From a virus, in IMG/VR virus record IMGVR_UViG_3300031857_001459, positions 1 to 23,116 of that record: DNA of 23,116 bases. One strand, written 5' to 3'. A model generated the notes under the pieces. It was not told where the DNA came from. It saw only the letters and a program-made list of their open reading frames with translations, and made no database searches. The position numbers were made by a program, and so were the translations under genes. This document shows, piece after piece, positions 4,916-23,102 of the stretch. Positions within the stretch are counted from its first letter, which is position 1; each line of letters starts with the position of its first letter.

Positions 4916-7339
4916 GTGTCAGCGATTAAGATCACCAAGTTCCTTGGGACAACTCCGAAAAATGCTTCGGAGTTGATACCCGATACGGCTGCGCAGCTTG
5001 CAGAAAACTGCAAGCTGTACTCTGGTGATCTTATTCCCTACCCGACGCCAACCATTGTAGCGGATGCCCACCGTTCGGGTGTTATCCGTACGCTTTATGC
5101 TTTGCGGGACCCGGACACCGATGATCTTGTTTGGCTTTCGTGGAATTCTGTTGTTGATATTGTAACGCCAGCCACGGATACAGCCAGTGAGCAGCGGTTT
5201 TACTATACAGGCGATGGTGCCCCAAAGATCAGCACCTATGACTTGGCTACGCAGGGTTCCACGCCATACCCTAATGGGTATTATGACCTGGGCTTACCTC
5301 TGCCCACAGTCAAGCCGACAACTGTCGCTACGACTTTCACGCCCGTAACCACTTCGTCTTTTGCTCGCGCCGCAGGTAACAACGTCACACTGGTGACAAG
5401 CTCAGCGCATAACTTGAAATCCGGCGCTATTATCACGGTATCAGGGTTCTCGTTCCGCACCGGTACATACAGCCGCAGTGGCACGCTTATCACGGTGACG
5501 ATCACCGGACACGGCCTGTCCAGCGGCTCCGATGTTCTGCTAAAGTTCACGTCTGGCACTGCCACGACCAATACCTACACCATCACGGTGACAGGAGCGA
5601 ACACCTTCACGTGTAACGATACTTCTTCCGGTTCGACTTCCGGCGATGTAAGTTGGGATATTGGCGATCTGAACACCACTGCAGAAGTGACGGTCATCAA
5701 CTCAACGACCATCAGGTATTTTTCGCCCGGCCCGACTGTGACCACCACATCGAGTTCCGATGGTTCGGTTGACCTTGGTGGGCAGATTCAATCTCGTAAC
5801 TACCTATACACTTGGTACACAGGCTGGCAGGAGGAGTCGATTGGCTCTGAGCCTGCTGATGCCTTGTTCATCAAGGAAGGGCAGATTGTTACTGTTGGCA
5901 CGCTACCCACCGTAAAGCCCGCAGGAGACAACTTCGTCCGTGGTATTCGGCTTTACCGTACCCTGGCTGGTACGACTGACGCTGAGTATTATCGGTTGGC
6001 AACCTTGCTGTTCCCCAACACCATCACAACTGTAGAGCGTACTAGTAACGTATCTAAAGTAACTTTTCAGTATCCCCACCAGTTGTTCAAGGATGACCGC
6101 TTTAAGATAAGCGGATGCAGTGTAGCATCGTTTGACATCACGGGCGGTATTGTTACTGAGGTCGTCGACCAGTACACGTTTGAGTATGCTCAGACGGCTT
6201 CTAATGTGGCCTCAGCATCTGCCACTGGTACGCTCTATTATGATGTGTCTGAGAACCCGCCAACGACCACGGCACGGTATTGGGGTGATGGCGGCATTTA
6301 TGACTTTACAGATGACTTCAGCTTCCGGTCACTTACCAGTATTCTGCAGTCCAATAACTATGATGCGCCGCCCGAGTACCTTCAGGGTCTGACGATTATT
6401 CAGAGCAGCATCCTCGCAGGATTTGTTGATAACACGCTCTACTTGTCTGAGCCGGGTGTCTTCCACGCATGGCCGAAAGCCTACACTAAGTCTTTCGATA
6501 GCGACATCGTTGGACTCGCTCAGATCGGTGGCAATCTATTGGTTCTGACCAAAGGCTATCCATACATTCTGTCAGGCTCAAACCCCGCGATTATGTCGCA
6601 GGCCCGGTTGTCAGCTCGTTACCCATGCCTTAACCGGCGCAGCATCGTTGAGACCAGCTTCGGGGTTATCTATTCTACCCATGACGGTTTGGCGATCTAT
6701 GCGCCATCATCCTCAGCGCAGCTTCTGACACGTTTGATCCACAGCAGCGATACGTGGAATGCGTCGCTTGACCCCGATACATTGGTGGGCGTGACATACA
6801 AAGACACGTACATCGCCTCCTCTGATACCGGCTCAATCGTATTGGAACCCGGCAGCGGGCAGAACGTCGGCACCTTTGTTGATAATGCCTTCACCTTCAC
6901 TGCCGCATGGTACGACGCTATCACAAATAACTTGTACGTTGTATCTGGCACCAACGGTGATATTTATCAGTGGGATGATGCCGCGCAGCCCAATACAACA
7001 ATGCGGTGGAAGTCAAAGACTTTCATCACCAAAGACTTCACGAACATCGGTGCAGCCCGCATCGTTGCAGACTATACTGGTGTCGCCGGGTCCTCCTTCT
7101 GGGAAGATGTCGATACCGCATGGAATGTAACCGAAGAATTATGGGATGCAGCCGACCCGATCACATTCAAACTATACGTGGATAAGAACCTTATCTTTAC
7201 CACAACACAGTCCAATAGTAGCCTATTCCGGCTACCATCAGGGTATAGAAGTGATACCTTCGAGGTAGAGATTGAAAGCCTTGTTCGGGTTCGTGCAATC
7301 CATCTGGCTGATACCCCAACCGGTTTGAGGACAGCGTAA
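4916..7339 (+). CDS. Tail nozzle / tail-tubular B-like structural protein (807 aa)
   Basis: The start is GTG at 4916, giving S-A-I-K-I-T-K-F-L-G-T-T-P-K-N-A-S-E-L-I-P-D. This is followed by A-A-Q-L-A-E-N-C-K-L-Y-S-G-D-L-x-P, a hallmark opening of podovirus nozzle and similar tail proteins (T7 gp12-type). The central and C-terminal part has the expected beta-propeller-like strings: V-F-H-A-W-P, D-I-V-G-L-A-Q-I-G-G-N-L-L-V-L-T-K-G and Y-P-C-L-N-R-R-S-I-V, then G-V-I-Y-S-T-H-D-G-L. Between about 155 and 245, and again near 379-440, sit small beta modules with an H-N-L/H-G-L-x-S-G motif, like FCCH-type inserts. The protein would form the distal tail tube through which DNA and internal proteins pass. 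The ribosome-binding site is weak. Confidence 0.78.
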   Translation: MSAIKITKFLGTTPKNASELIPDTAAQLAENCKLYSGDLIPYPTPTIVADAHRSGVIRTLYALRDPDTDDLVWLSWNSVVDIVTPATDTASEQRFYYTGDGAPKISTYDLATQGSTPYPNGYYDLGLPLPTVKPTTVATTFTPVTTSSFARAAGNNVTLVTSSAHNLKSGAIITVSGFSFRTGTYSRSGTLITVTITGHGLSSGSDVLLKFTSGTATTNTYTITVTGANTFTCNDTSSGSTSGDVSWDIGDLNTTAEVTVINSTTIRYFSPGPTVTTTSSSDGSVDLGGQIQSRNYLYTWYTGWQEESIGSEPADALFIKEGQIVTVGTLPTVKPAGDNFVRGIRLYRTLAGTTDAEYYRLATLLFPNTITTVERTSNVSKVTFQYPHQLFKDDRFKISGCSVASFDITGGIVTEVVDQYTFEYAQTASNVASASATGTLYYDVSENPPTTTARYWGDGGIYDFTDDFSFRSLTSILQSNNYDAPPEYLQGLTIIQSSILAGFVDNTLYLSEPGVFHAWPKAYTKSFDSDIVGLAQIGGNLLVLTKGYPYILSGSNPAIMSQARLSARYPCLNRRSIVETSFGVIYSTHDGLAIYAPSSSAQLLTRLIHSSDTWNASLDPDTLVGVTYKDTYIASSDTGSIVLEPGSGQNVGTFVDNAFTFTAAWYDAITNNLYVVSGTNGDIYQWDDAAQPNTTMRWKSKTFITKDFTNIGAARIVADYTGVAGSSFWEDVDTAWNVTEELWDAADPITFKLYVDKNLIFTTTQSNSSLFRLPSGYRSDTFEVEIESLVRVRAIHLADTPTGLRTA

Positions 7340-12739: not shown

Positions 12740-15700
12740 ATGAGCGGTTTGTACGCCCCCAGTGAGCTAGAACTAAGCCTCGGTATCAATCGTGCCCCGG
12801 AAAATTCTACGGAAGCTGTTGGGCTGTCTGCGCTGAACGCCGGTGACATCTATGGTATGCAGCAGCAGGTTATGCGTAGCACTGCGGCACTTCAGTCGGG
12901 TGTTGCGCCGCCTGCGCCCCCGCAGCCGGAAGCACAAGCGTACTTCAGTCGGTCCACTGGTAAGATGTTTGCCGGTGGTATGGCGTTTGATGAACGTGAC
13001 GTTCAGTCGGCGTTTCGTGCAGCGCAGCAATTTACTGCTGCTGCCGGTGCTCGTCCTCCGCAGGATGTGGCTGATTGGCAACCACTATCTCGCGCTGGGT
13101 ATGAAGCATACCTAAACGAACTTCGTACCCCACGTGGTATTGGCGAAAATCTAGTCCTCGGAGCACGTGGCGCTGTTGGTGGGTTTGTCAGTGGTATTGG
13201 CCGTGGCGCTGAGATGGTCGGTGCCACCAATGTTGGTCCCGCGATTGCTGGTTTTGGTGAGGCTATCACCGGTCAGGATGAGTTTGATAGGCAGCGGTCG
13301 GCCCTAATCCAGCAGTCTAATTCGCTTGTCAGCAATATCATTGACGCTGCTGTACAGGGTATTACATCTCTTGGCATATCAGCCGGTGCCGGTGTTGTTG
13401 GCGGTGTTGTTGGCGGCGCTATCGGTGGTCCTGCCGGTGCTGCTGCCGGTGCCACCACTGCCGCTACTGCAGCTCAAGCGGGTCGAGCCTTGGCTTCTGC
13501 ACGCGGTATCGGCGCTGTTCTCGGCCTCGGTGCAGCCAGCTTTCCTCAGCAACTCAATACGTTCTATGAAGCGGCGCAGAACGCCAGGGATGCACAGGGT
13601 CGTCCAGCATACGATCTGAATGATACATCTACTCAGCTTACCATCTTTGGTGCTGCCCTTGGTACATCGCTACTTGATGTAATTGCCCCGGGTCGCGCCG
13701 CGTTTGGTCTATCTCGTGCCCTCACTGAAGGCGCTCAGCAGGCTGGTACTCAGGCCCTTACCGGTCTGGCTCGGGCCAGGGCGGTTGGCGGCAGCGCAGC
13801 CCGCAGCGGGTTTGAAGAAGCTGCCACTGAAGCCACGCAGACCTTGGTTGAGCGGGCTGTTTTTGATCCCGAGTTCCGTCGGCAGCTCAACGCCGAAGAC
13901 ATAAAGGCGCTTGCCCCGTACATCGTCAACACGTATGGCCAGGATGTTCTCATCGCAGCCGGTGCCGGTGCGCTCCTTGGCGCCGGGTTTGGTGGCGCCG
14001 GTCGCTTCATTGAAACTCGGGGTGCAGGTTCTCAACCGCGCAACATTCTTGACCCAACGCAAACCAATGCTATTGGCGGTGCGGATACGGGTGAGGCCGG
14101 TACCGAACTTGTGCCCGTCGGTGGCCCCCCTCCCGGCGGTCCCCCTACCCCTGGTGCTCTCGTCACCCCTGGTACCCCTCCCATCTCCGGTTCTGTTTCG
14201 GGGGGTTATGGGGATTTACTACGTAGAACTCAATCATTAGCGTCAGGCGAAATTGGTGGCGCACCAAGTGAAAGAACGTATTCAGGATACGGAGAAGCAT
14301 ACGCTCGGCGTATGCCTGATCCCCTTGGCGTTGCCGGTTTTGGTGGCGCGGATGATACGTTTAACCGTATGGTTTCAGGTCCTGCCCCGGGCACCGAAGC
14401 TCCGCTAACATCCTATATCTACCCAGGACCGGTTCTGACTGAGCCCGGTTCGGTCGCGCAACTGCGCCCACCTGCAAGTGCAATACCCGGCGCACCCGTA
14501 GTTGCACCTTACACACCAACACCTACAGCACCTATCCCATCAGGGTCTCAACCGATTACTTTGGTGGCGCCGGGGGCCGACGCCCTTCGCGCACAGCGCG
14601 GGCTGACAACTACGGCGCAGCAACGGCAGGTCGAGCAAGACATCCAATCTCGGGTGCAGGCCAACGCGAGTGCACCACGCCCTGACGTTCTGTACGATCC
14701 GTCTGACCCTGGTGCCGTTCAGCGCGCCATGCGCTCTTTTGGATTTGCTTCAGAAAAGCCGGGAACCAAGGTACTAGAGCCGGACGCCACAGAAATACTT
14801 AGGCTGCGCGATCCGATGCGGGCAGGCGAGCCGATTACACTACGGGACGTGAACGAAGCAGCAGCGATGCTCGGTCGCACTCGCGGTTCCGGCACACCAG
14901 TGGCACGGCCCACCCCCGTGGTGCCTGCTAATATGGCACAAGCCATGCAGGATGTCGGGCTGACTGTTGAAGATGTGGTAGCGGCACGCGACCGCCTGCG
15001 CAGTGGCCCGGTTACTTATGAAGATGTGCGCATTGCGGCGCGGCGCAAGGGTACGGAACTACCGGTTCGTATGGCTCGGGCTGCGGCGCCTGAGTCTACG
15101 GTTGAGACGGCCCTCCCCCCTGCGCTTGAAGCACTTGCCGCGGCCCCTACGCCTACGCCCGCAACCAAGCTCAAGAAAGGAAAAGCCCGTGCCCCTGAAG
15201 TCAGGCAAGTCGAACAAGGTGGTCTCAGCCAACGTACAGGAGCTGGTGGACCGGTACCAAGCAAAGGGAAAGATCGGCTCAAGCCGACCAAAGAACAAGG
15301 CGGCGGCGGTCAAACAGGCCGTAGCAATCTCACTCGCCAAGGCCGGGCGGCAGCGCAAGAAGTAACACCTGCACCGGCTGCGGAGGTGGCCGCTCAGCGC
15401 CCTTTCTCACTCGCCGCACCAAACGTGACAGAAAGAGCGGCTCCATCCGCCGCCCCAAGGGCTGAGGCTGCGACCCCAAACACGTTTGATAGGCAAATCA
15501 CTCAGGCAGCTACCAGTGCTAACCCGGCGGCGCAGCTTCGTACGCTGAAGAACGAACTGATCACGCGGCGCGATGCCACCGCTGATGCTGGCCGCAGTAC
15601 GACTGAACTTACTCAGGCTATTGACCGTATTGACGCACTGGTCGCTGAAGGTCCGGTCACTACGCCAGATGTTGAGGGTGTGTCCGGCCCAGGTTCACCG

Positions 15701-18700
15701 CAGTCCGTCTGGGCTGCGGCCATGAACGATGATGGTGTTGGCTACACCCAGATGTCTGAAGATGGTCGCCGCGCTTGGGATAACGAAGTGGCTACCAGCC
15801 CTGTGCCGCCCACTGCGGAACGGGCTCAGTATTACCAAGACACGTTCCTGCCCGAAGATACCCAACGCAGCATCAGTTACGTGCGCAGCCTTGCCAGCAA
15901 GCTGGCATCTGCCAGCGATGAGCGTTACCTACAGATCACTGAGAAGCTGAGCGAGCTGGCCAGTTCTGACAACCAGCGTGTCGCTGCCGAAGCGCAGCGC
16001 GCATTGGACGGTGAATTATCCGGTACGCCCGGCAGGTTCTCCCTTTCTGGCTGGAACACCCGGCAGGGTACGGTCAACGCAGATGGCACACCAACAACCC
16101 CAATGGCCGTTGGCCGGGTGCGGATGCTTGTCAATAACTTCGTAGCTAAACTGGCAACCAAGCCCAAGGTCACAGTGGTGGCCAACCAGCAGGAACTACA
16201 GCGCACCAACCCGGCACTGTACCAACAAGCCGTGGCTGCTCGCCCGCAGGGTGACTTTGCTACTGCTGAGGCGGCTGGGTACTCCTTCGGTGACGGCAAC
16301 GTCATCATCTTCACTGACCGTATTGCCAATGAGCAGCACCTGCGGTTCGTGCTGGCCCATGAGACCTTCGGCCACTTCGGTATGCGCGGCATCATGCCCG
16401 CATCACGCTTCAACGCGCTTATGGAAAACATCTATGAGACAGATGGAAGCGCCAAGCTGGCAGTTGATGCCGCTATGGAAGTGCGCGGGCTGAGCAAGGC
16501 CGAAGCCGTTGAAGAATACCTGTCTGACTACGCCGGGATGCTTGAAACCAGCACGGTTGCCCGCATCTGGAACGCCATCAAGGGCTTCCTTGATCGCCTT
16601 GGTGTGAAGTTTGGGGATACAGCTACCCGGTACTTCCTTGATCAGTCGCGCCGCTATGTACGGCAGGGTGCCCAGGGTGTGACCTTCGATGCAGAGGCGG
16701 TGGCGAAGCGGCTGCACGCTGTTGAGTACGGCGATACCGGCACTGGCCGGTTCAGCCCGCAGGCAGCGATGAGTGCCAACGCCAAGGCGAATTTGTTTGT
16801 AACAGAGCTAGGCCCGTGGCCAACCAACTTCGCTGAGACTTGGGACTACATCCAGAAGCAAGGAAAGAATATTGCTAACATCTACGATGATGTGAAAGCA
16901 AAGTTCCTTAGCCTTGCAAATTACCGCGCACTGGAAAACCCAGGGCTATCAGCATTCGACGGCTTGATGGGCCAGACCAACCAAATTTCCATGGCGGTCA
17001 AAGCGTCATTGAATGAATATCTACGCCCCGTACTTGATGCTCCAAAAGCTGTGCAAGATAAAATCTCACGCACCATGTACAATGCGCGTAGCTATAAGAT
17101 CAGCCAGTTCAAAGCCGGTGATCTTGGTAAAGAACCTCTGTTCAAGGTTGCTGCTGATGGTACCCTTACGCCAAATACGGCTGAGCAGGAGCGTATATTC
17201 AAAGCCGGTCTGATGACGCTCAAGCAGATTCAAGACGGCTATTCCTACAACCGTGAGATCGAGGGTACTGATGGTAAAGTCACCACGGTAAAAGAAACCG
17301 TGGCCGCTCAAAAAGACTTCACCAAAGAAGATTACGCTCTGTATGAGCGTGCCCGGCGTGCGGTGTTTAACGTCGAGATGCAGCTACTTCAGGCTGAGTA
17401 CGGCGCCCTTATGGCTAACAAGCGCCTGACCAATAAAGAGATCAGCGGTTTTATGGCTGACAACAAACTCACTGCTGAAGATCGTCGCTTCGTTGATTCC
17501 ATGGCACGCCGCGCACTGGCGCTCTATACTGAAGGCGCCGGTACTGATCCCACAGGTAACACTGTGATCGATCCAAAAGCCATGAAGAAGTCCGATGATT
17601 TCTTGGCTGCTGTTAATGCTGCGACGATTGGCACCGGCACAGACCGCAACGCTGCGGTGCGCGACTACTTTGCTTCGCCACAAGCGGCTGATGCATTCAT
17701 CACTGAGCTGACCGCGTTTAAGGATCGTCGTCGCGAGATTACCGATGACAACAGGTTCTCCTTACAAAATAAGGTGAAGCAACTCATCCTCAACGAACAC
17801 AACCTGAACACCAGGGATAAGATTTCCCGTCGATCTGTGATGACTGGATACACCCCGGTGTTGCGCGAAGGTAATTTCCAGACCCGCGTTCAAGCGTTTG
17901 TCAACGGCAAACTTGTTGAGGTGAAGGACGCGCACAAGGCGTTGCTTTCCTATTCGCAGTTTAACACCGAGCCCGAAGCCAAGACCGTGGCTGATATGCT
18001 CGATAAGGAATTCAAAGGTAAGACCTTTGAGTTGTTGGTGCGCAATGATGCCGGTGAGTTCGTACCTACCAAGGTAACACTTCGCACCACGACTGGTCGT
18101 GTGTTGGATGCCGTGGCCGCTGACCCGCAGCTCAACCTACAAGAATTCCTCTACGGGCTGAACCTGTTCAATGTGAACCTCAACCCGGAAAGCATGGCAC
18201 GTATTGTCACCACGCTGTCGCGTCAGGGTGACGGTGCCCGTAGGCGGTTGGAGTATTCTCAGACCCCGGGCTTTGACCCCACCACTGGTATCTACGCCAT
18301 CTCACGGCACATCGAAGGTCGTGCATCCACCATTGCCAAGGCCACCACACGGCAGGCGCTGCGCGAACTGATGAACCTTGATATAGCTGAGTCGCGTGCC
18401 CTGTGGTCAGGTGATGAAGTTCGGGTAAATCAGATGCAGGCTGAGATGAACAGGCTCAACGCCGACCCAAATGCGTCGCAGGATGCGAAGCGGTATGCGC
18501 TACAGCAGCTCACGCAAGCGCAGTACCAGTTCCGTATGACCAACCCGGAAGGGCGTGCTGAGCGGTCAATGGCTTACTATAACCAAGCCGCTTCTACCCT
18601 TGATTATCTTGAGGGTAGTAAATATGTGGATGAGACTGACTTCGGCGCAGGTCCTGTTGCTTCTCGGGTCCGTGCCTACACCAGCGTATGGCAACTTGGC

Positions 18701-20242
18701 GGTAGCCTTGCCCAAGGTGTACTGAACTTGCTCAGCCCATACACCAACTGGATGCCATACATGGCCAGCTTCAATGCGAAGAACGGCTTCGGCGGCGGCT
18801 TCGGTATTGGTAAGGTACAGTCAGCTTACCACTCAGCGTTCCGTCAGGTGGGTGCGCCGGGCATCTTGCGCATGACCATGAACCAAGCTGAATTCTACGA
18901 TAACGTGGCCAAGGACCCGGCGCTTCAGAAGAAACACGGCCTGACAGTCGATGAAGCCAAGGTTATTGCTAACGAAATCCGCCAAGGTAAATTGATTCCG
19001 GCCCAGTCAAACGCACTCATCGCCACTGCGCGGGGGCAAACAACCAATAAGTTCCTGCGTGGTTTTATTGATAAGTACATGGCTCCATTCAACCTGTCAG
19101 AACAGGCAGGTCGTCGTGCAGCTTTCTTGGCTGCATACCGGTTGAAGCGGGACCAGATGCTCGGTGCCGGTAAATCCCAGAAGGATGCTCAACAAGAAGC
19201 AAGTGACTTCGCAGTGAAATCTCTTGACTTGACCCTTGGTGACTACTCGGTGCTGAACCGGCCACCTGCGTTCCGGGCTGGCATCACGTCCTTCCTCTAT
19301 ATGTACAAGACGTACCCGACCACCACGATCCAGTTGCTGGCCAATCTGTCCCGACCTGCGCAGCTATCCATGTTGGCCGGTCTGTGGTTCCTTTCCGGCG
19401 CAGCGGGTTTGCCTTTCGCTGAGGACCTTGAAGACCTGATTGATACCATCTCGCAGAAGCTAGGATTCCGGCAGGGCAGCATTCGGGGTGAGATCATCAA
19501 ACATATCGAAGCTACGTTCCCCGGTATGTCGGCTATATTCCTCAAGGGTTTGGTGAATGAGTTCCTGCCAATACCCGCCGACATCGCCTCTCGCACTTCG
19601 ATGGGTAACATCATCCCTGGCACTGGCGCATTCTTGGCTGGCGCTGATGTAGCCCGTGAACTTGGTGATATTCTTGGCCCGGCTGCAGGCTTTATCTCAG
19701 GCACTGCTGAGATGGCTCGCAACCTTGTGGTGTTCCCGTTCTCCTCGCGGGTGAGCCTGGAAGATGTAGCCCGGGAATCACCGATTACCTTGCTCCGGTT
19801 GATGGGTGACTCATACGCCTACCTACAGTCGGGTGCCGTGGTTGACCGCCGTGGGTATGTGGTTAGTAAAGATATGGATATGGGTACCATCATCACTCGG
19901 CTTGCGGGTTTCTACCCATCGCAAGCGGCGAACCAGTATGATGTTATCCGTATCGCCAACCGCACCACTGATTACCAGAAGGAAGCCGTGGCTTCGTTCC
20001 GTCACGCTTGGATCAAGGCTACCCTGCGCGGTGATACGCAGGCGGCTAGTGAGATCATGAATGACGTGCGCGAATGGAACAACGCCACACGTGGCACCCC
20101 ACTGGAAATCAGGAACTTCTCAACCGGTAACACCAGGGCATTGCGTGAGGCTCAGCGGCCAGCGGGTGAGCGCGCACTGCGGGCTGCGCCAAGGGCGGCG
20201 CAGGAAGACATCCGTGGGTTTATTGACGCCCTGATCGATTAG
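12740..20242 (+). CDS. Giant multidomain virion protein with HExxGH zincin module and polyvalent-type C-terminus (2500 aa)
   Basis: GAGG at 12731-12734 precedes the ATG by five bases; the frame is uninterrupted for 7.5 kb. Domains in order: N-terminal region (1-110); Gly/Ala-rich hydrophobic segments near 120-165, 207-250, 300-325 and 401-425; a Pro/Ala-rich linker (435-930) with a duplicated D-V-x-x-A-A module near 691-715 and 751-775; a zincin-like module (about 1098-1337) with H1207-E-T-F-G-H1212 and downstream E1258-E-Y-L-S-D; a long helical region (1340-1900); and a C-terminal domain (1920-2500) with G-L-P-F-A-E-D-L-E-D-L-I and I-I-P-G-T-G. This last part resembles C-termini of large phage polyvalent proteins. 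I infer the largest ejected protein, occupying the place of T7 gp16, with a peptidase module where T7 carries a transglycosylase. A separate gene lies embedded at 15189-15365. Confidence 0.8.
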   Translation: MSGLYAPSELELSLGINRAPENSTEAVGLSALNAGDIYGMQQQVMRSTAALQSGVAPPAPPQPEAQAYFSRSTGKMFAGGMAFDERDVQSAFRAAQQFTAAAGARPPQDVADWQPLSRAGYEAYLNELRTPRGIGENLVLGARGAVGGFVSGIGRGAEMVGATNVGPAIAGFGEAITGQDEFDRQRSALIQQSNSLVSNIIDAAVQGITSLGISAGAGVVGGVVGGAIGGPAGAAAGATTAATAAQAGRALASARGIGAVLGLGAASFPQQLNTFYEAAQNARDAQGRPAYDLNDTSTQLTIFGAALGTSLLDVIAPGRAAFGLSRALTEGAQQAGTQALTGLARARAVGGSAARSGFEEAATEATQTLVERAVFDPEFRRQLNAEDIKALAPYIVNTYGQDVLIAAGAGALLGAGFGGAGRFIETRGAGSQPRNILDPTQTNAIGGADTGEAGTELVPVGGPPPGGPPTPGALVTPGTPPISGSVSGGYGDLLRRTQSLASGEIGGAPSERTYSGYGEAYARRMPDPLGVAGFGGADDTFNRMVSGPAPGTEAPLTSYIYPGPVLTEPGSVAQLRPPASAIPGAPVVAPYTPTPTAPIPSGSQPITLVAPGADALRAQRGLTTTAQQRQVEQDIQSRVQANASAPRPDVLYDPSDPGAVQRAMRSFGFASEKPGTKVLEPDATEILRLRDPMRAGEPITLRDVNEAAAMLGRTRGSGTPVARPTPVVPANMAQAMQDVGLTVEDVVAARDRLRSGPVTYEDVRIAARRKGTELPVRMARAAAPESTVETALPPALEALAAAPTPTPATKLKKGKARAPEVRQVEQGGLSQRTGAGGPVPSKGKDRLKPTKEQGGGGQTGRSNLTRQGRAAAQEVTPAPAAEVAAQRPFSLAAPNVTERAAPSAAPRAEAATPNTFDRQITQAATSANPAAQLRTLKNELITRRDATADAGRSTTELTQAIDRIDALVAEGPVTTPDVEGVSGPGSPQSVWAAAMNDDGVGYTQMSEDGRRAWDNEVATSPVPPTAERAQYYQDTFLPEDTQRSISYVRSLASKLASASDERYLQITEKLSELASSDNQRVAAEAQRALDGELSGTPGRFSLSGWNTRQGTVNADGTPTTPMAVGRVRMLVNNFVAKLATKPKVTVVANQQELQRTNPALYQQAVAARPQGDFATAEAAGYSFGDGNVIIFTDRIANEQHLRFVLAHETFGHFGMRGIMPASRFNALMENIYETDGSAKLAVDAAMEVRGLSKAEAVEEYLSDYAGMLETSTVARIWNAIKGFLDRLGVKFGDTATRYFLDQSRRYVRQGAQGVTFDAEAVAKRLHAVEYGDTGTGRFSPQAAMSANAKANLFVTELGPWPTNFAETWDYIQKQGKNIANIYDDVKAKFLSLANYRALENPGLSAFDGLMGQTNQISMAVKASLNEYLRPVLDAPKAVQDKISRTMYNARSYKISQFKAGDLGKEPLFKVAADGTLTPNTAEQERIFKAGLMTLKQIQDGYSYNREIEGTDGKVTTVKETVAAQKDFTKEDYALYERARRAVFNVEMQLLQAEYGALMANKRLTNKEISGFMADNKLTAEDRRFVDSMARRALALYTEGAGTDPTGNTVIDPKAMKKSDDFLAAVNAATIGTGTDRNAAVRDYFASPQAADAFITELTAFKDRRREITDDNRFSLQNKVKQLILNEHNLNTRDKISRRSVMTGYTPVLREGNFQTRVQAFVNGKLVEVKDAHKALLSYSQFNTEPEAKTVADMLDKEFKGKTFELLVRNDAGEFVPTKVTLRTTTGRVLDAVAADPQLNLQEFLYGLNLFNVNLNPESMARIVTTLSRQGDGARRRLEYSQTPGFDPTTGIYAISRHIEGRASTIAKATTRQALRELMNLDIAESRALWSGDEVRVNQMQAEMNRLNADPNASQDAKRYALQQLTQAQYQFRMTNPEGRAERSMAYYNQAASTLDYLEGSKYVDETDFGAGPVASRVRAYTSVWQLGGSLAQGVLNLLSPYTNWMPYMASFNAKNGFGGGFGIGKVQSAYHSAFRQVGAPGILRMTMNQAEFYDNVAKDPALQKKHGLTVDEAKVIANEIRQGKLIPAQSNALIATARGQTTNKFLRGFIDKYMAPFNLSEQAGRRAAFLAAYRLKRDQMLGAGKSQKDAQQEASDFAVKSLDLTLGDYSVLNRPPAFRAGITSFLYMYKTYPTTTIQLLANLSRPAQLSMLAGLWFLSGAAGLPFAEDLEDLIDTISQKLGFRQGSIRGEIIKHIEATFPGMSAIFLKGLVNEFLPIPADIASRTSMGNIIPGTGAFLAGADVARELGDILGPAAGFISGTAEMARNLVVFPFSSRVSLEDVARESPITLLRLMGDSYAYLQSGAVVDRRGYVVSKDMDMGTIITRLAGFYPSQAANQYDVIRIANRTTDYQKEAVASFRHAWIKATLRGDTQAASEIMNDVREWNNATRGTPLEIRNFSTGNTRALREAQRPAGERALRAAPRAAQEDIRGFIDALID
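15178..15181 (+). promoter_or_regulatory. Ribosome-binding site AGGA for the embedded gene
   Basis: AGGA within GAAAGGAAAA lies seven bases before the GTG at 15189, inside the giant ORF. Its spacing fits initiation of the +1-frame gene. It supports that gene being expressed rather than a chance open frame. Confidence 0.6.
15189..15365 (+). CDS. Embedded +1-frame small basic protein, DUF6496-like (58 aa)
   Basis: GTG 15189 to TAA 15365 lies wholly inside the 2500-codon ORF, shifted +1. The product starts M-P-L-K-S-G-K-S-N-K-V-V-S-A-N-V and ends in K-Q-A-V-A-I-S-L-A-K-A-G-R-Q-R-K-K. This is the plan of small stand-alone phage proteins (P-L-K-x-G-K-S-x-K-x-x-S-x-N-I ... K-Q-A-V-A-I-A-L-S-K-A-G), which I associate with DUF6496. 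By hand count, 45 of 58 third positions in this frame are G or C, but only 25 of 58 in the giant's frame over the same bases. The giant's frame here encodes a low-complexity linker (G-G-G-G-Q-T-G-R-S-N). I conclude a real overlapping gene, probably captured by the giant ORF. Function unknown; its Lys/Arg content could suit nucleic-acid or virion contacts. Confidence 0.72.
   Translation: MPLKSGKSNKVVSANVQELVDRYQAKGKIGSSRPKNKAAAVKQAVAISLAKAGRQRKK
16031..16756 (+). other. Zincin-like peptidase module within the giant protein (residues 1098-1339)
   Basis: The module opens with G-R-F-S-L-S (residues 1098-1103) and is followed by another G-R-F-S at 1336-1339. Inside are a helical R-M-L-V-N-N-F segment, strands (K-V-T-V-V-A-N, G-D-G-N-V-I-I-F-T-D) and the helix carrying H1207, E1208 and H1212 in H-E-T-F-G-H-F-G. 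A downstream helix has E1258 and E1259 in A-V-E-E-Y-L-S-D-Y-A. The HExxGH spacing is that of M49 dipeptidyl peptidase III (HELLGH with a later EExxxE/D), not the commoner HExxH. Similar H-E-x-x-G-H-x-G-x-R segments occur in large phage polyvalent proteins. Peptidase activity is inferred, not shown. Confidence 0.65.
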
Positions 20243-20253
20243 GTCAGGGTGTT
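20225..20253. terminator. Possible hairpin between convergent genes
   Basis: CCCTGA (20229-20234) pairs exactly with TCAGGG (20244-20249) across a nine-base loop that holds the + strand stop. Four more pairs, two of them G-U on the + strand RNA, extend the stem outward. The - strand stop lies in the right arm. No U-run follows on either strand, so it is not a canonical intrinsic terminator. Its exact position over both stops suggests it may stop or slow converging transcription. Confidence 0.35.
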
Positions 20254-23102
20254 GCGCCTTGGATAACACTGAGGTGAGCGTTGATCGTCCGGTTTTCTTC
20301 ATTGGTTAGGATGCCAATGAGGCGCGGGTGGTTGACGCTGAGGGCCAGCACGTATTGCTGACCCAGCTTGATATTGGTGCCCCGGCCAAGGTAGCCCTTC
20401 TCGGACTGCGGGGTGGCGTTTATACCCTGCTGGTTTATTTCTTCTACCAGTGAGCGGTAATCACCGCCCCTCGCAGCCAGCCATTTCTTGAAGTGCCTCC
20501 GGTCGATGGTGATCAAACCATCGTTGAGCGGCGCCCCCGAGTTAGGGCGGAATAGGTCGTATCGGATATGCACCTCACCCCGTGGCATACGGTTGGTGTC
20601 AATGATTTGTTGAGATGGGTTGGTCACGTGAGTCACGGTCAGCGCCGTGTGCGATTGGTCGTTCAGGTACTCGGTCAGCATGTCAAAGGCATCCGCATGG
20701 TTCTCAGTCACGGACTTACGCATTGCTCCGATCTGAGCCAGCACGTAGGCTGTACCGTCCTTATAGTCGAATTGGATAAGCCCAAGTTCCGTAGCAATTT
20801 TACCCATTAGGTCGGCACACAGGATACATTGTTCCCAATACCGCTCACTGCCGGAAAACTTAGCGCCATACTGCTTGTTGAACACACCTCGGTGGTGTTC
20901 AAGCGCCGCCATGATACCCGACTCCCCAAGCGCCAGCAGATGGCGGATGATGACCCGCCCGGCTGAGCCGTAGTTGGTGCTGAGGAATGAGTACATCTTC
21001 TGCCCTGCGTTGGTATTGCGCGTGAACAGGGGGTGCGGGTTGATTGTTACTTCCAACAGACGCGCCATCTGGGCATCAGTCTCAAGCCCTGACGCTGCCA
21101 GCATGGAGGCCAGTGACCGGTTGGATGAGGTGGTTACGATGGTCGCCCATGTCTTGGCATCACGCTCCTCAGCGGAGCGGGACAGCCGGGCCTTATCACG
21201 CCCCTGTGATACCCAATAAAGGAAGTCTCCGATCTCCTTGGCAGGCAGCATGGTGGCTTCGTCAATGGTGACCGGCAGGTTGTTGTAGAACCCCATGCGG
21301 GCAAACATGGCGTTCTGCGTGAACTTGGCTGTGTAGTGTAACCGCACCGGGTCGCCCCATACTGACTGCTGCCATAGCTGCGCCAAGGTCTTACCTGCCC
21401 CGGTCTGCCCATACAGGCTGATCGTCAACCCCTTGAGCCCGGTGAAGTTAAACAGTGGCGCTGCCATCCCTACACACAGCGCGAACTTGTGGGCTGACAT
21501 GGTAGCCTTCTCTAATACAGAGGTGAAGTTGACCCATGCCTCAAGGGTGCCGCTTGTCTCATACAAGTTCTCAGTAATGCGCTGCGCGCCGAGTGCGACG
21601 CTCACAGTCTCAGTCGTTACGGAACCACTCGCATCGCGTTTGTACAACGTATCACCAAGAAGGAATTCGGCATTGTCCTGCTTCCATCCCATGGTGGCGT
21701 ACAGGTTGGTCACCGACTTAAGCTGCCGCAGTTCTTCCATGTAGGACCGCAACATCATTTGAAATAGCTCCGTCTGCTTCTTAGTGGGAAGAACGATACC
21801 CTGATCTGCGATGGTAATAGCGAAGTCTTTGATGGAGAACTCAGCCAGGAGTGACTGCCGGAACGACAGGGTTTGCCAACCAACGTGCGGGCGGTTCCAC
21901 CGGTAACGCACTGTCTCATACCCAAGGGACTCATCTCTACCATAACTGACCGGGTATATATCGAACGTGCATACGTCCACGTCGGATTTATCTAGGGTGA
22001 TGCGAAGCCCGCCCCCTTCGCGCCACTTGAACGGCCTTGGCGGCTTCATGGTCAGGGGCTCTGGCGTATCTACCGGCGGCGGTGCCGGTGCGTACTCTAT
22101 GGCCAGCCTTACGGGGGTCGTGATCTTGTTGAAGAACTTACAACCCTTGCACCCGTCAGGGCGTTCCTGCTCGAACCGAGTGCAGGTGGTCGGACCCGTG
22201 GTGCTATTGCGCCACTGATTCAGCTTGCGGAGGGTTGTGCCTTCATCATAGCCTGGGTGGTTCTGGCTCCAAGCCTTGGCCGTTTCTTCCGGGTCCGAGC
22301 AGTGCGCGGCCACACCCATCAGGGCATACCACAGGGGCTCAGGCACACTGTCTTGGTTCTGTACTGCCCATGCGACCTGGGCACACTTCTCAATGACCGT
22401 ATCGGGGTTGGCCGGTGGGAAGTCCTGCTTCACCGCCATGGCATCCAATAGGGATGAGCGGGCGGGTTGTATAACTGTGGTGCTGGTAGTGACAGTACCA
22501 ACCAGCAGGGCTGTCATATCCTCAACGCTGACAGGATCAGCGTCGATCAGCAGCTTAACCTCACCACCACCCTTGGGGTTCACGGTGCCGACAGGGCGCA
22601 GCACCCGGGCACTATCAGCCGGTACCGCAGGGTCGAACAGTGCGCGACCATCCTCAGTCGGGATCATAGCCTTCAGCCCCATGGCCAATGGCATCCACTC
22701 ATCGTGAGTGAGTTCACGATCCAATACCCAGTACACATGCAGCCCGTTACCGGATGCCACGATCATAGGTTTCGGCAACTTGTTGGTAGCAACAAACTCG
22801 CCTAGCGCACGAAGCCCTTGCTTCCAGTGCGGGAAAGGTTTGTCCGGGCCGCAGTCAATGTCGAGGTACAACGCTTTGATCAGGTGGACATTCTCCTGCT
22901 TACGCCCTGCCCGGCGGTCAACAAAGGATGCCACTGCGTAGTACACGTTGTTACCGGCGCCGTTCAGCGCGTCTATGTTGCTTGCCAGCGCAGCTATGTC
23001 ACTGTGGAATCCCTGCCTCGGTCCTTGGCCTTTGTTGAGTGTTATTGAAACAACATAGCCCTCGGACGGGAGGACCCGCCGAAGAAACTCAAGCGTATCC
23101 AT
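20244..23102 (-). CDS. Primase-helicase: AEP-like primase, Cys region and DUF927-like ATPase (952 aa)
   Basis: The ATG at 23102 gives a complete 952-residue protein. Residues 60-190 carry archaeo-eukaryotic primase features: L-Y-L-D81-I-D83-C (metal-binding DxD), S117-G-N-G-L-H122 (nucleotide-binding sxH) and R166-V-L-R-P-V-G-T-V-N-P-K. Residues about 235-325 resemble a primase C-terminal segment (W-Y-A-L-M-G-V-A-A-H, W-S-Q-N-H-P-G-Y-D) with C307, C318 and C321, which could hold zinc. The C-terminal half has Walker A G565-Q-T-G-A-G-K-T and S-V-W-G-D-P, Walker B V-T-I-D614-E615 and sensor-type T-T-S-S-N661, as in DUF927-type ATPases. It would prime and unwind DNA during phage replication. It is the only - strand gene here and converges with the late genes, so it belongs to a separate, presumably early, transcription unit. 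Confidence 0.82.
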   Translation of the reverse strand: MDTLEFLRRVLPSEGYVVSITLNKGQGPRQGFHSDIAALASNIDALNGAGNNVYYAVASFVDRRAGRKQENVHLIKALYLDIDCGPDKPFPHWKQGLRALGEFVATNKLPKPMIVASGNGLHVYWVLDRELTHDEWMPLAMGLKAMIPTEDGRALFDPAVPADSARVLRPVGTVNPKGGGEVKLLIDADPVSVEDMTALLVGTVTTSTTVIQPARSSLLDAMAVKQDFPPANPDTVIEKCAQVAWAVQNQDSVPEPLWYALMGVAAHCSDPEETAKAWSQNHPGYDEGTTLRKLNQWRNSTTGPTTCTRFEQERPDGCKGCKFFNKITTPVRLAIEYAPAPPPVDTPEPLTMKPPRPFKWREGGGLRITLDKSDVDVCTFDIYPVSYGRDESLGYETVRYRWNRPHVGWQTLSFRQSLLAEFSIKDFAITIADQGIVLPTKKQTELFQMMLRSYMEELRQLKSVTNLYATMGWKQDNAEFLLGDTLYKRDASGSVTTETVSVALGAQRITENLYETSGTLEAWVNFTSVLEKATMSAHKFALCVGMAAPLFNFTGLKGLTISLYGQTGAGKTLAQLWQQSVWGDPVRLHYTAKFTQNAMFARMGFYNNLPVTIDEATMLPAKEIGDFLYWVSQGRDKARLSRSAEERDAKTWATIVTTSSNRSLASMLAASGLETDAQMARLLEVTINPHPLFTRNTNAGQKMYSFLSTNYGSAGRVIIRHLLALGESGIMAALEHHRGVFNKQYGAKFSGSERYWEQCILCADLMGKIATELGLIQFDYKDGTAYVLAQIGAMRKSVTENHADAFDMLTEYLNDQSHTALTVTHVTNPSQQIIDTNRMPRGEVHIRYDLFRPNSGAPLNDGLITIDRRHFKKWLAARGGDYRSLVEEINQQGINATPQSEKGYLGRGTNIKLGQQYVLALSVNHPRLIGILTNEENRTINAHLSVIQGATP

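Follow-up and report, generated by a model that had tools for sequence, protein, structure and literature searches.

The small open reading frame inside the giant ORF of the window (the whole stretch of 23,116 nucleotides analyzed in this study) is very probably a phrog_2423 gene, overprinted in the +1 frame of the giant's linker, with its own ribosome-binding site and in a slot whose occupant can be exchanged (table 1). The computational results demonstrate homology to a phage gene family, purifying selection on the small frame, avoidance of stop codons in the giant's frame, an exact exchange of the nested gene and repeated switches of occupant. Independent translation from the giant's late mRNA is the most likely mode of expression, but this is an inference made without expression data. 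A late timing and a role either in virion (head) assembly or as a partner of the giant are also inferred.

Table 1. Positions of the features in the window that are referred to in the text.
Feature	Position	Strand	Description
Host giant ORF	12740–20242	+	2500 codons (2500 aa); PLxRFG-domain (NF032893) large polyvalent-type virion protein
Shine-Dalgarno-like AGGA	15178–15181	+	7 bases 5' of the GTG at 15189; SD motif in 36/37 nested relatives
Dual-frame stretch	15188–15365	+	Giant's frame is a Gly/Gln/Lys/Arg-rich linker (residues ~816–876) flanked by Ala/Pro-rich stretches
Nested small gene	15189–15365	+	phrog_2423-type basic protein; +1 relative to the giant ORF; 58 codons from GTG (15189) plus TAA (15363–15365)
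HETFGH motif	16358–16375	+	Giant residue 1207; possible HExxH metallopeptidase, family assignment inferred
PLxRFG domain region	18656–20125	+	Giant residues 1973–2462; NF032893, 147.9 bits (curated cut-off 100)

Family and product of the nested gene

The 58-residue product matched phrog_2423 over its full length (E 1.9e-9; residues 1–58, profile positions 1–43 of 52). An earlier sequence-only reading had placed the AGGA seven bases before the GTG, followed by 58 codons and a stop in the +1 frame of the giant, and all of these coordinates were confirmed. It had also proposed that the product belongs to a known stand-alone phage family; this was correct in that the family is PHROG 2423, but the name given, DUF6496, could not be confirmed. 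The Pfam search with the small protein returned nothing above the gathering score and no model of that name even at E 1, and the NCBIfam search gave no match above cut-off and no DUF6496. The overlap region was identical in a second IMG/VR record (L002/L088), which excludes an error in a single assembly.

In annotated phages the short form of the gene was found in 456 records as a stand-alone gene, unlike the nested copy in the window. These relatives adjoin portal/head-morphogenesis genes, 5' of protease/scaffold/capsid genes, in DSL-LC04, phiEap-2, PSA25 (Pbunavirus) and Spe5P4, and in vB_ValP_FGH the relative lies upstream of the terminase small subunit gene. The DSL-LC04 gene (WJZ48066.1) is an example of a family member that is similar to the window gene over its full length but stands alone between portal and capsid genes. 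Among 123 distinct family-1 (phrog_2423-type) loci from IMG/VR, 39 were nested (i.e. inside an ORF of at least 400 codons), 81 were stand-alone and three were only antisense to a long ORF. All 39 nested loci were in the +1 frame and none in +2. Each record searched had one copy (record G030 held two pieces of a single copy).

Some stand-alone copies (L154, L152 and L190) belong to another phage type and lie outside the head-gene module, among small genes of unknown function. Two nested copies (L101 7596–7736 and L109 7401–7544) are a short form of about 48 aa, while relatives of their hosts carry the 58-aa form, so that a middle segment appears to have been lost in frame from a dual-coding gene. 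Other conserved small basic phage genes (MAKTPAWQR..GGLNAKGR.. and KAPQKSLVDWTKQKWRTKSGKPS..) were seen in L018, L037, L039 and L195–L197, near stand-alone copies or in slot-bearing genomes, and may form a functional set. Weak matches in records without the small gene (L195–L199) resembled chance hits or other small genes and were dropped.

The small protein of the window has a pI of 11.3 (15 K/R and 2 D/E residues) and is predicted to fold into two helices (residues 9–26 and 37–51; pLDDT 88.7, pTM 0.70). Together with the head-gene neighborhood of the stand-alone relatives, these properties suggest an accessory role in virion assembly. Our best guess is a basic protein of two helices, made late from a ribosome-binding site of its own and serving as an accessory in virion assembly, its function and its translation both being inferred. 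The gene could also be nested as described while its product is an infection regulator or DNA-binding protein, a possibility that we consider real but hold below an even chance. The strongly basic two-helix character would fit such a protein, as would the CopG-like annotation of the top named match in a BFVD search, which otherwise returned mainly phage homologs. The PDB sequence search found nothing above cut-off, although its weak best match was an Arc variant (E 0.02). On the other hand, the stand-alone relatives are repeatedly found amid portal, head morphogenesis, scaffold and capsid genes, and solved folds offered no significant match (Foldseek against PDB, none at E 0.001 or better). 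The choice of an assembly accessory over a nucleic-acid-binding regulator is not much better than an even call.

Exchange of the occupant

The slot was examined in 52 relatives retrieved via the giant's C-terminus. A phrog_2423-type gene, wherever present, was nested in +1. Most of the other full-length giants had a different small basic ORF (family 2) in the same linker, also in the +1 frame and with an SD motif. The family 2a occupant (MPFKSQAQRKYLYANEP...) is phrog_1375-like (E 2.7e-4), an assignment that is tentative, as the PHROG 1375 profile gave E 2.7e-4 to 6.4e-3 for three sequences. The divergent form, 2b, gave no PHROG 1375 match but aligns to 2a at 96.7% probability. No convincing alignment was obtained between families 1 and 2. 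Family 2a is constrained in its own frame, and some family-2b pairs (L099–L100) are weakly constrained.

Comparison of L131/L134 (family 1) with L133/L135 (family 2) revealed an exact start-to-stop replacement of the nested gene. The giants of L134 and L133 are 94–95% identical in DNA on both sides, and the stretch that differs runs exactly from the ATG to the stop codon. L131, L132 and L134 come from three metagenomes and L133 and L135 from two others; since both versions were found in multiple metagenomes, assembly chimerism is unlikely to be behind the exchange. On a tree of the host C-termini the occupant family switches about five times, or nine times if 'none' and the 2a/2b split are counted as states. 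A scan for family 2 (57 classified loci) gave 24 nested loci in +1, 33 stand-alone loci and none in +2, with nested hosts of 419–3576 codons. Judged from these comparisons, the site is an overprinted slot with interchangeable occupants, a property that the sequence-only reading had not seen.

The slot is not always used: four full-length giants of the same group (L097, L102, L107 and L124) have neither family in it, and in several distant LPD38-type giants no occupant was recognized. The slots of the former four may hold other occupants or be empty sites. No nested member of either family was found in 12 isolated-phage regions that were scanned. Ten of these hold distant giant relatives (Shewanella Y11, Pseudoalteromonas Y7, Pseudomonas 8P and Pseudomonas F116, Microcystis Mel-JY34, Achromobacter CF418P1, Escherichia PTXU04, Aeromonas phiARM81mr, Planktothrix Pag-Yong1 and Vibrio D274), and two hold stand-alone family-2 genes.

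A possible third occupant was noticed in LPD38-type giants (L218 2019–2168, L231 6329–6478 and L220 5822–5968). Here +1 ORFs (MMKSLDKLRKQNLLKGMVALSKLAPKARARIVKNELAKRQLSS... and MRSNLKDKERKLKVVRALAKLPLDKRLPLIQDEMEKRGLQS...), roughly 50 codons long and with SD-like sequence, sit directly after a conserved host motif, GFTE.EI.DE. Their likeness was judged by eye, and tblastn was not significant.

The findings are best accounted for if a small stand-alone phage gene had entered a disordered-looking, tolerant linker of a giant late gene. Owing to that tolerance, the giant's frame would have been able to adapt by losing stops across the inserted gene, while the small gene would have retained its ribosome-binding site and start codon and be translated from the giant's mRNA. 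The homologous flanks would later permit the occupant to be swapped as a start-to-stop unit, with at least one other small basic family (phrog_1375-like) as partner. A further-reaching proposal, which we put forward only tentatively, is that the giants hold a dedicated overprinted docking slot, where unrelated small families are swapped as exact start-to-stop cassettes with the giant's frame preserved. The product of the occupant may then work together with the giant, and its production may be coupled to the giant's mRNA.

Start signals and constraint in the two frames

Of 37 nested starts, 36 have an SD motif in front of them, compared with 7.3% of the +1-frame ATG/GTG codons elsewhere in the same hosts. 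This bears on a very unlikely alternative, in which ribosomes translating the giant shift into the small frame, so that the product is a shortened giant with the small domain at its end and the small gene has no initiation of its own. The small frame in the window is indeed open for 69 codons 5' of the GTG. However, a small-frame stop lies shortly before the start in other nested loci (five codons in L003 and L012, two codons in L134), and an ATG or GTG start together with the SD motif was retained in the same 36 of 37 relatives. Moreover, the homologs are complete stand-alone proteins beginning at the same Met, and the exact exchange starts at the ATG. Initiation at the small gene's own start is thus preferred over frameshifting.

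The giant's frame contained no stop across the small gene in any of the 37 nested family-1 cases. When each small protein was recoded with the codon usage of its host, the mean probability of an open giant's frame was 0.007; the hosts of family 2 were also open, with a mean chance of 0.015. Because the sequences are related, these probabilities cannot be treated as independent; the effect was nevertheless seen repeatedly in distant hosts. Since the giant's frame has been kept free of stops, both frames are probably read in the overlap, although there are no expression data. It might still be supposed that the giant is in fact two genes, parted near 15200 with the small gene in the gap, and that the long frame is open by chance, as the small gene dictates which residues the giant has in the overlap, and these show little conservation. 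This is also very unlikely, given that the frame is open in every nested case although the chance of this per case is ~0.7% in family 1 and 1.5% in family 2, whereas 80 of the 81 stand-alone copies have 1–19 stops in that frame. In one relative (L215 1976–10311) a frame change near 7200, at a distance from the nested gene, divides the giant; this may be a sequencing error or a real split.

In 17 pairs of nested loci, dN/dS of the overlap was mostly 0.06–0.45 in the small frame, while the giant's frame gave about 1.3 or more in nearly all informative pairs (pair L015–L023 is little diverged and hence uninformative). Outside the overlap, the same giants had values of ~0.1–0.36. Differences at the giant's codon positions 1/2/3 numbered 116/62/44 in the overlap and 2295/1687/4319 in the downstream flanks (p ~1e-21). 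This test pooled seven pairs picked from different lineages; sites in the same gene are not entirely independent of each other, and for one pair the flank used was that of a close relative's pair. Amino acid identity in the overlap was higher in the small frame than in the giant's frame at every divergence among nested loci. By dN/dS, codon-position differences and identity, the small frame is the constrained one. An overprinted pair is expected to show an outer frame that is open throughout the overlap and purifying selection on the nested frame there, and both were observed; the production of both proteins, which is likewise expected, is inferred.

About 15 other plus-strand alternative-frame ORFs of at least 50 aa lie within the same giant ORF, so ORF length alone is no evidence for a gene, but the idea that the small ORF is a chance ORF or a codon-usage artefact of a GC-rich gene can practically be discarded in view of the full-length family match, the purifying selection on the small frame with the giant's frame relaxed, and the exact exchange with another gene, the substitution pattern alone being sufficient to refute it. 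Homology and selection together indicate that the ORF is a real gene.

The claim of the sequence-only reading that the embedded frame is the constrained one was thus borne out by dN/dS and codon positions. It had relied on G+C at third positions, and its counts (45/58 for the small frame and 25/58 for that of the giant) were reproduced, but a high GC3 alone does not indicate constraint. GC3 was 0.82 in nested genes and ~0.5 in their hosts. Third positions of the small frame are first positions of the giant's, and the high value arises because codons ending in T are avoided ahead of certain codons that start with A or G, where they would create stops in the giant's frame; GC3 was consequently rejected as independent evidence. 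The suggestion that an independent small gene had been inserted into, or swallowed by, the giant agrees with the stand-alone and nested loci counted above and the stop-free giant's frame, and also with the fact that giants which otherwise cannot be aligned have the nested gene in common over ~60 residues. The outcome named as refuting it, i.e. no homolog of the small protein and relatives that conserve the giant's residues but break the small frame, was not met on either count.

The host ORF and known overlapping genes

No Pfam match (LPD domains) was obtained for the giant of the window. Its relative L013 has an LPD38 region above cut-off, and relatives also match DarB-like families; these matches are to large polyvalent proteins (PMC5512222). 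The host type appears to be shared with that class, by PLxRFG in the giant of the window and by LPD38/DarB-like regions in relatives. Nested genes did not come up in that paper, as far as its passages with overlap and frame terms go. Profiles of host group A (window) and group C (L013), and of A and E (L038), align significantly only over the ~60 nested residues, and with the nested part masked, 72 nested hosts formed two clusters, with 52 and 18 members, and two singletons. In the small-protein tree most nested copies group together, with L038 and L188 among the stand-alone copies; a single embedding event was not rejected (AU p 0.42).

Genes nested in another late gene occur in dsDNA phages, where the spanin gene Rz1 lies in a different frame of Rz and the two form a functional pair within the lysis cassette. 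The arrangement described here is similar in that a gene of a dsDNA phage is nested in a different frame of a late gene, but the outer gene in this case is a giant virion/polyvalent gene, whose occupant changes from one family to another. Other systems also provide well-known examples of nested phage genes. In ssRNA phages, sgl lysis genes are embedded in rep, mostly in +1, and arose de novo (PMC7693330). Like the gene studied here they lie wholly within a large phage gene, in regions where it is less conserved, and their position varies between relatives, but the present gene belongs to a widespread conserved family that has stand-alone homologs and can be replaced in place by another. In classical overprinting, e.g. 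phiX174 E in D, two protein-coding frames likewise overlap internally and +1 is the usual phase (reviewed in PMC8227390); there the nested frame is the young one, whereas here the small gene is conserved and the giant's linker has adapted. In the open-access literature we found no description of an overprinted site at which one gene family takes the place of another as an exact unit, nor of a nested gene that is the conserved partner and has stand-alone homologs.

Overlapping genes are usually explained as new frames arising in old genes. In the present case conservation lies with the nested gene, which also has stand-alone homologs and for which a different gene can substitute without breaking the outer frame. 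The slot is thus a natural experiment on the tolerance of a long protein for a wholly different linker. The results also suggest that annotation which omits nested genes overlooks a class of small phage genes, and they open the roles of phrog_2423 and phrog_1375, two widespread families of unknown function, to joint testing.

Two neighbors of the giant were noted in the window: an internal virion protein-like gene (phrog_511) upstream at 4916–7339, and, immediately downstream at 20244–23102 and on the opposite strand, a DNA primase/helicase-like gene.
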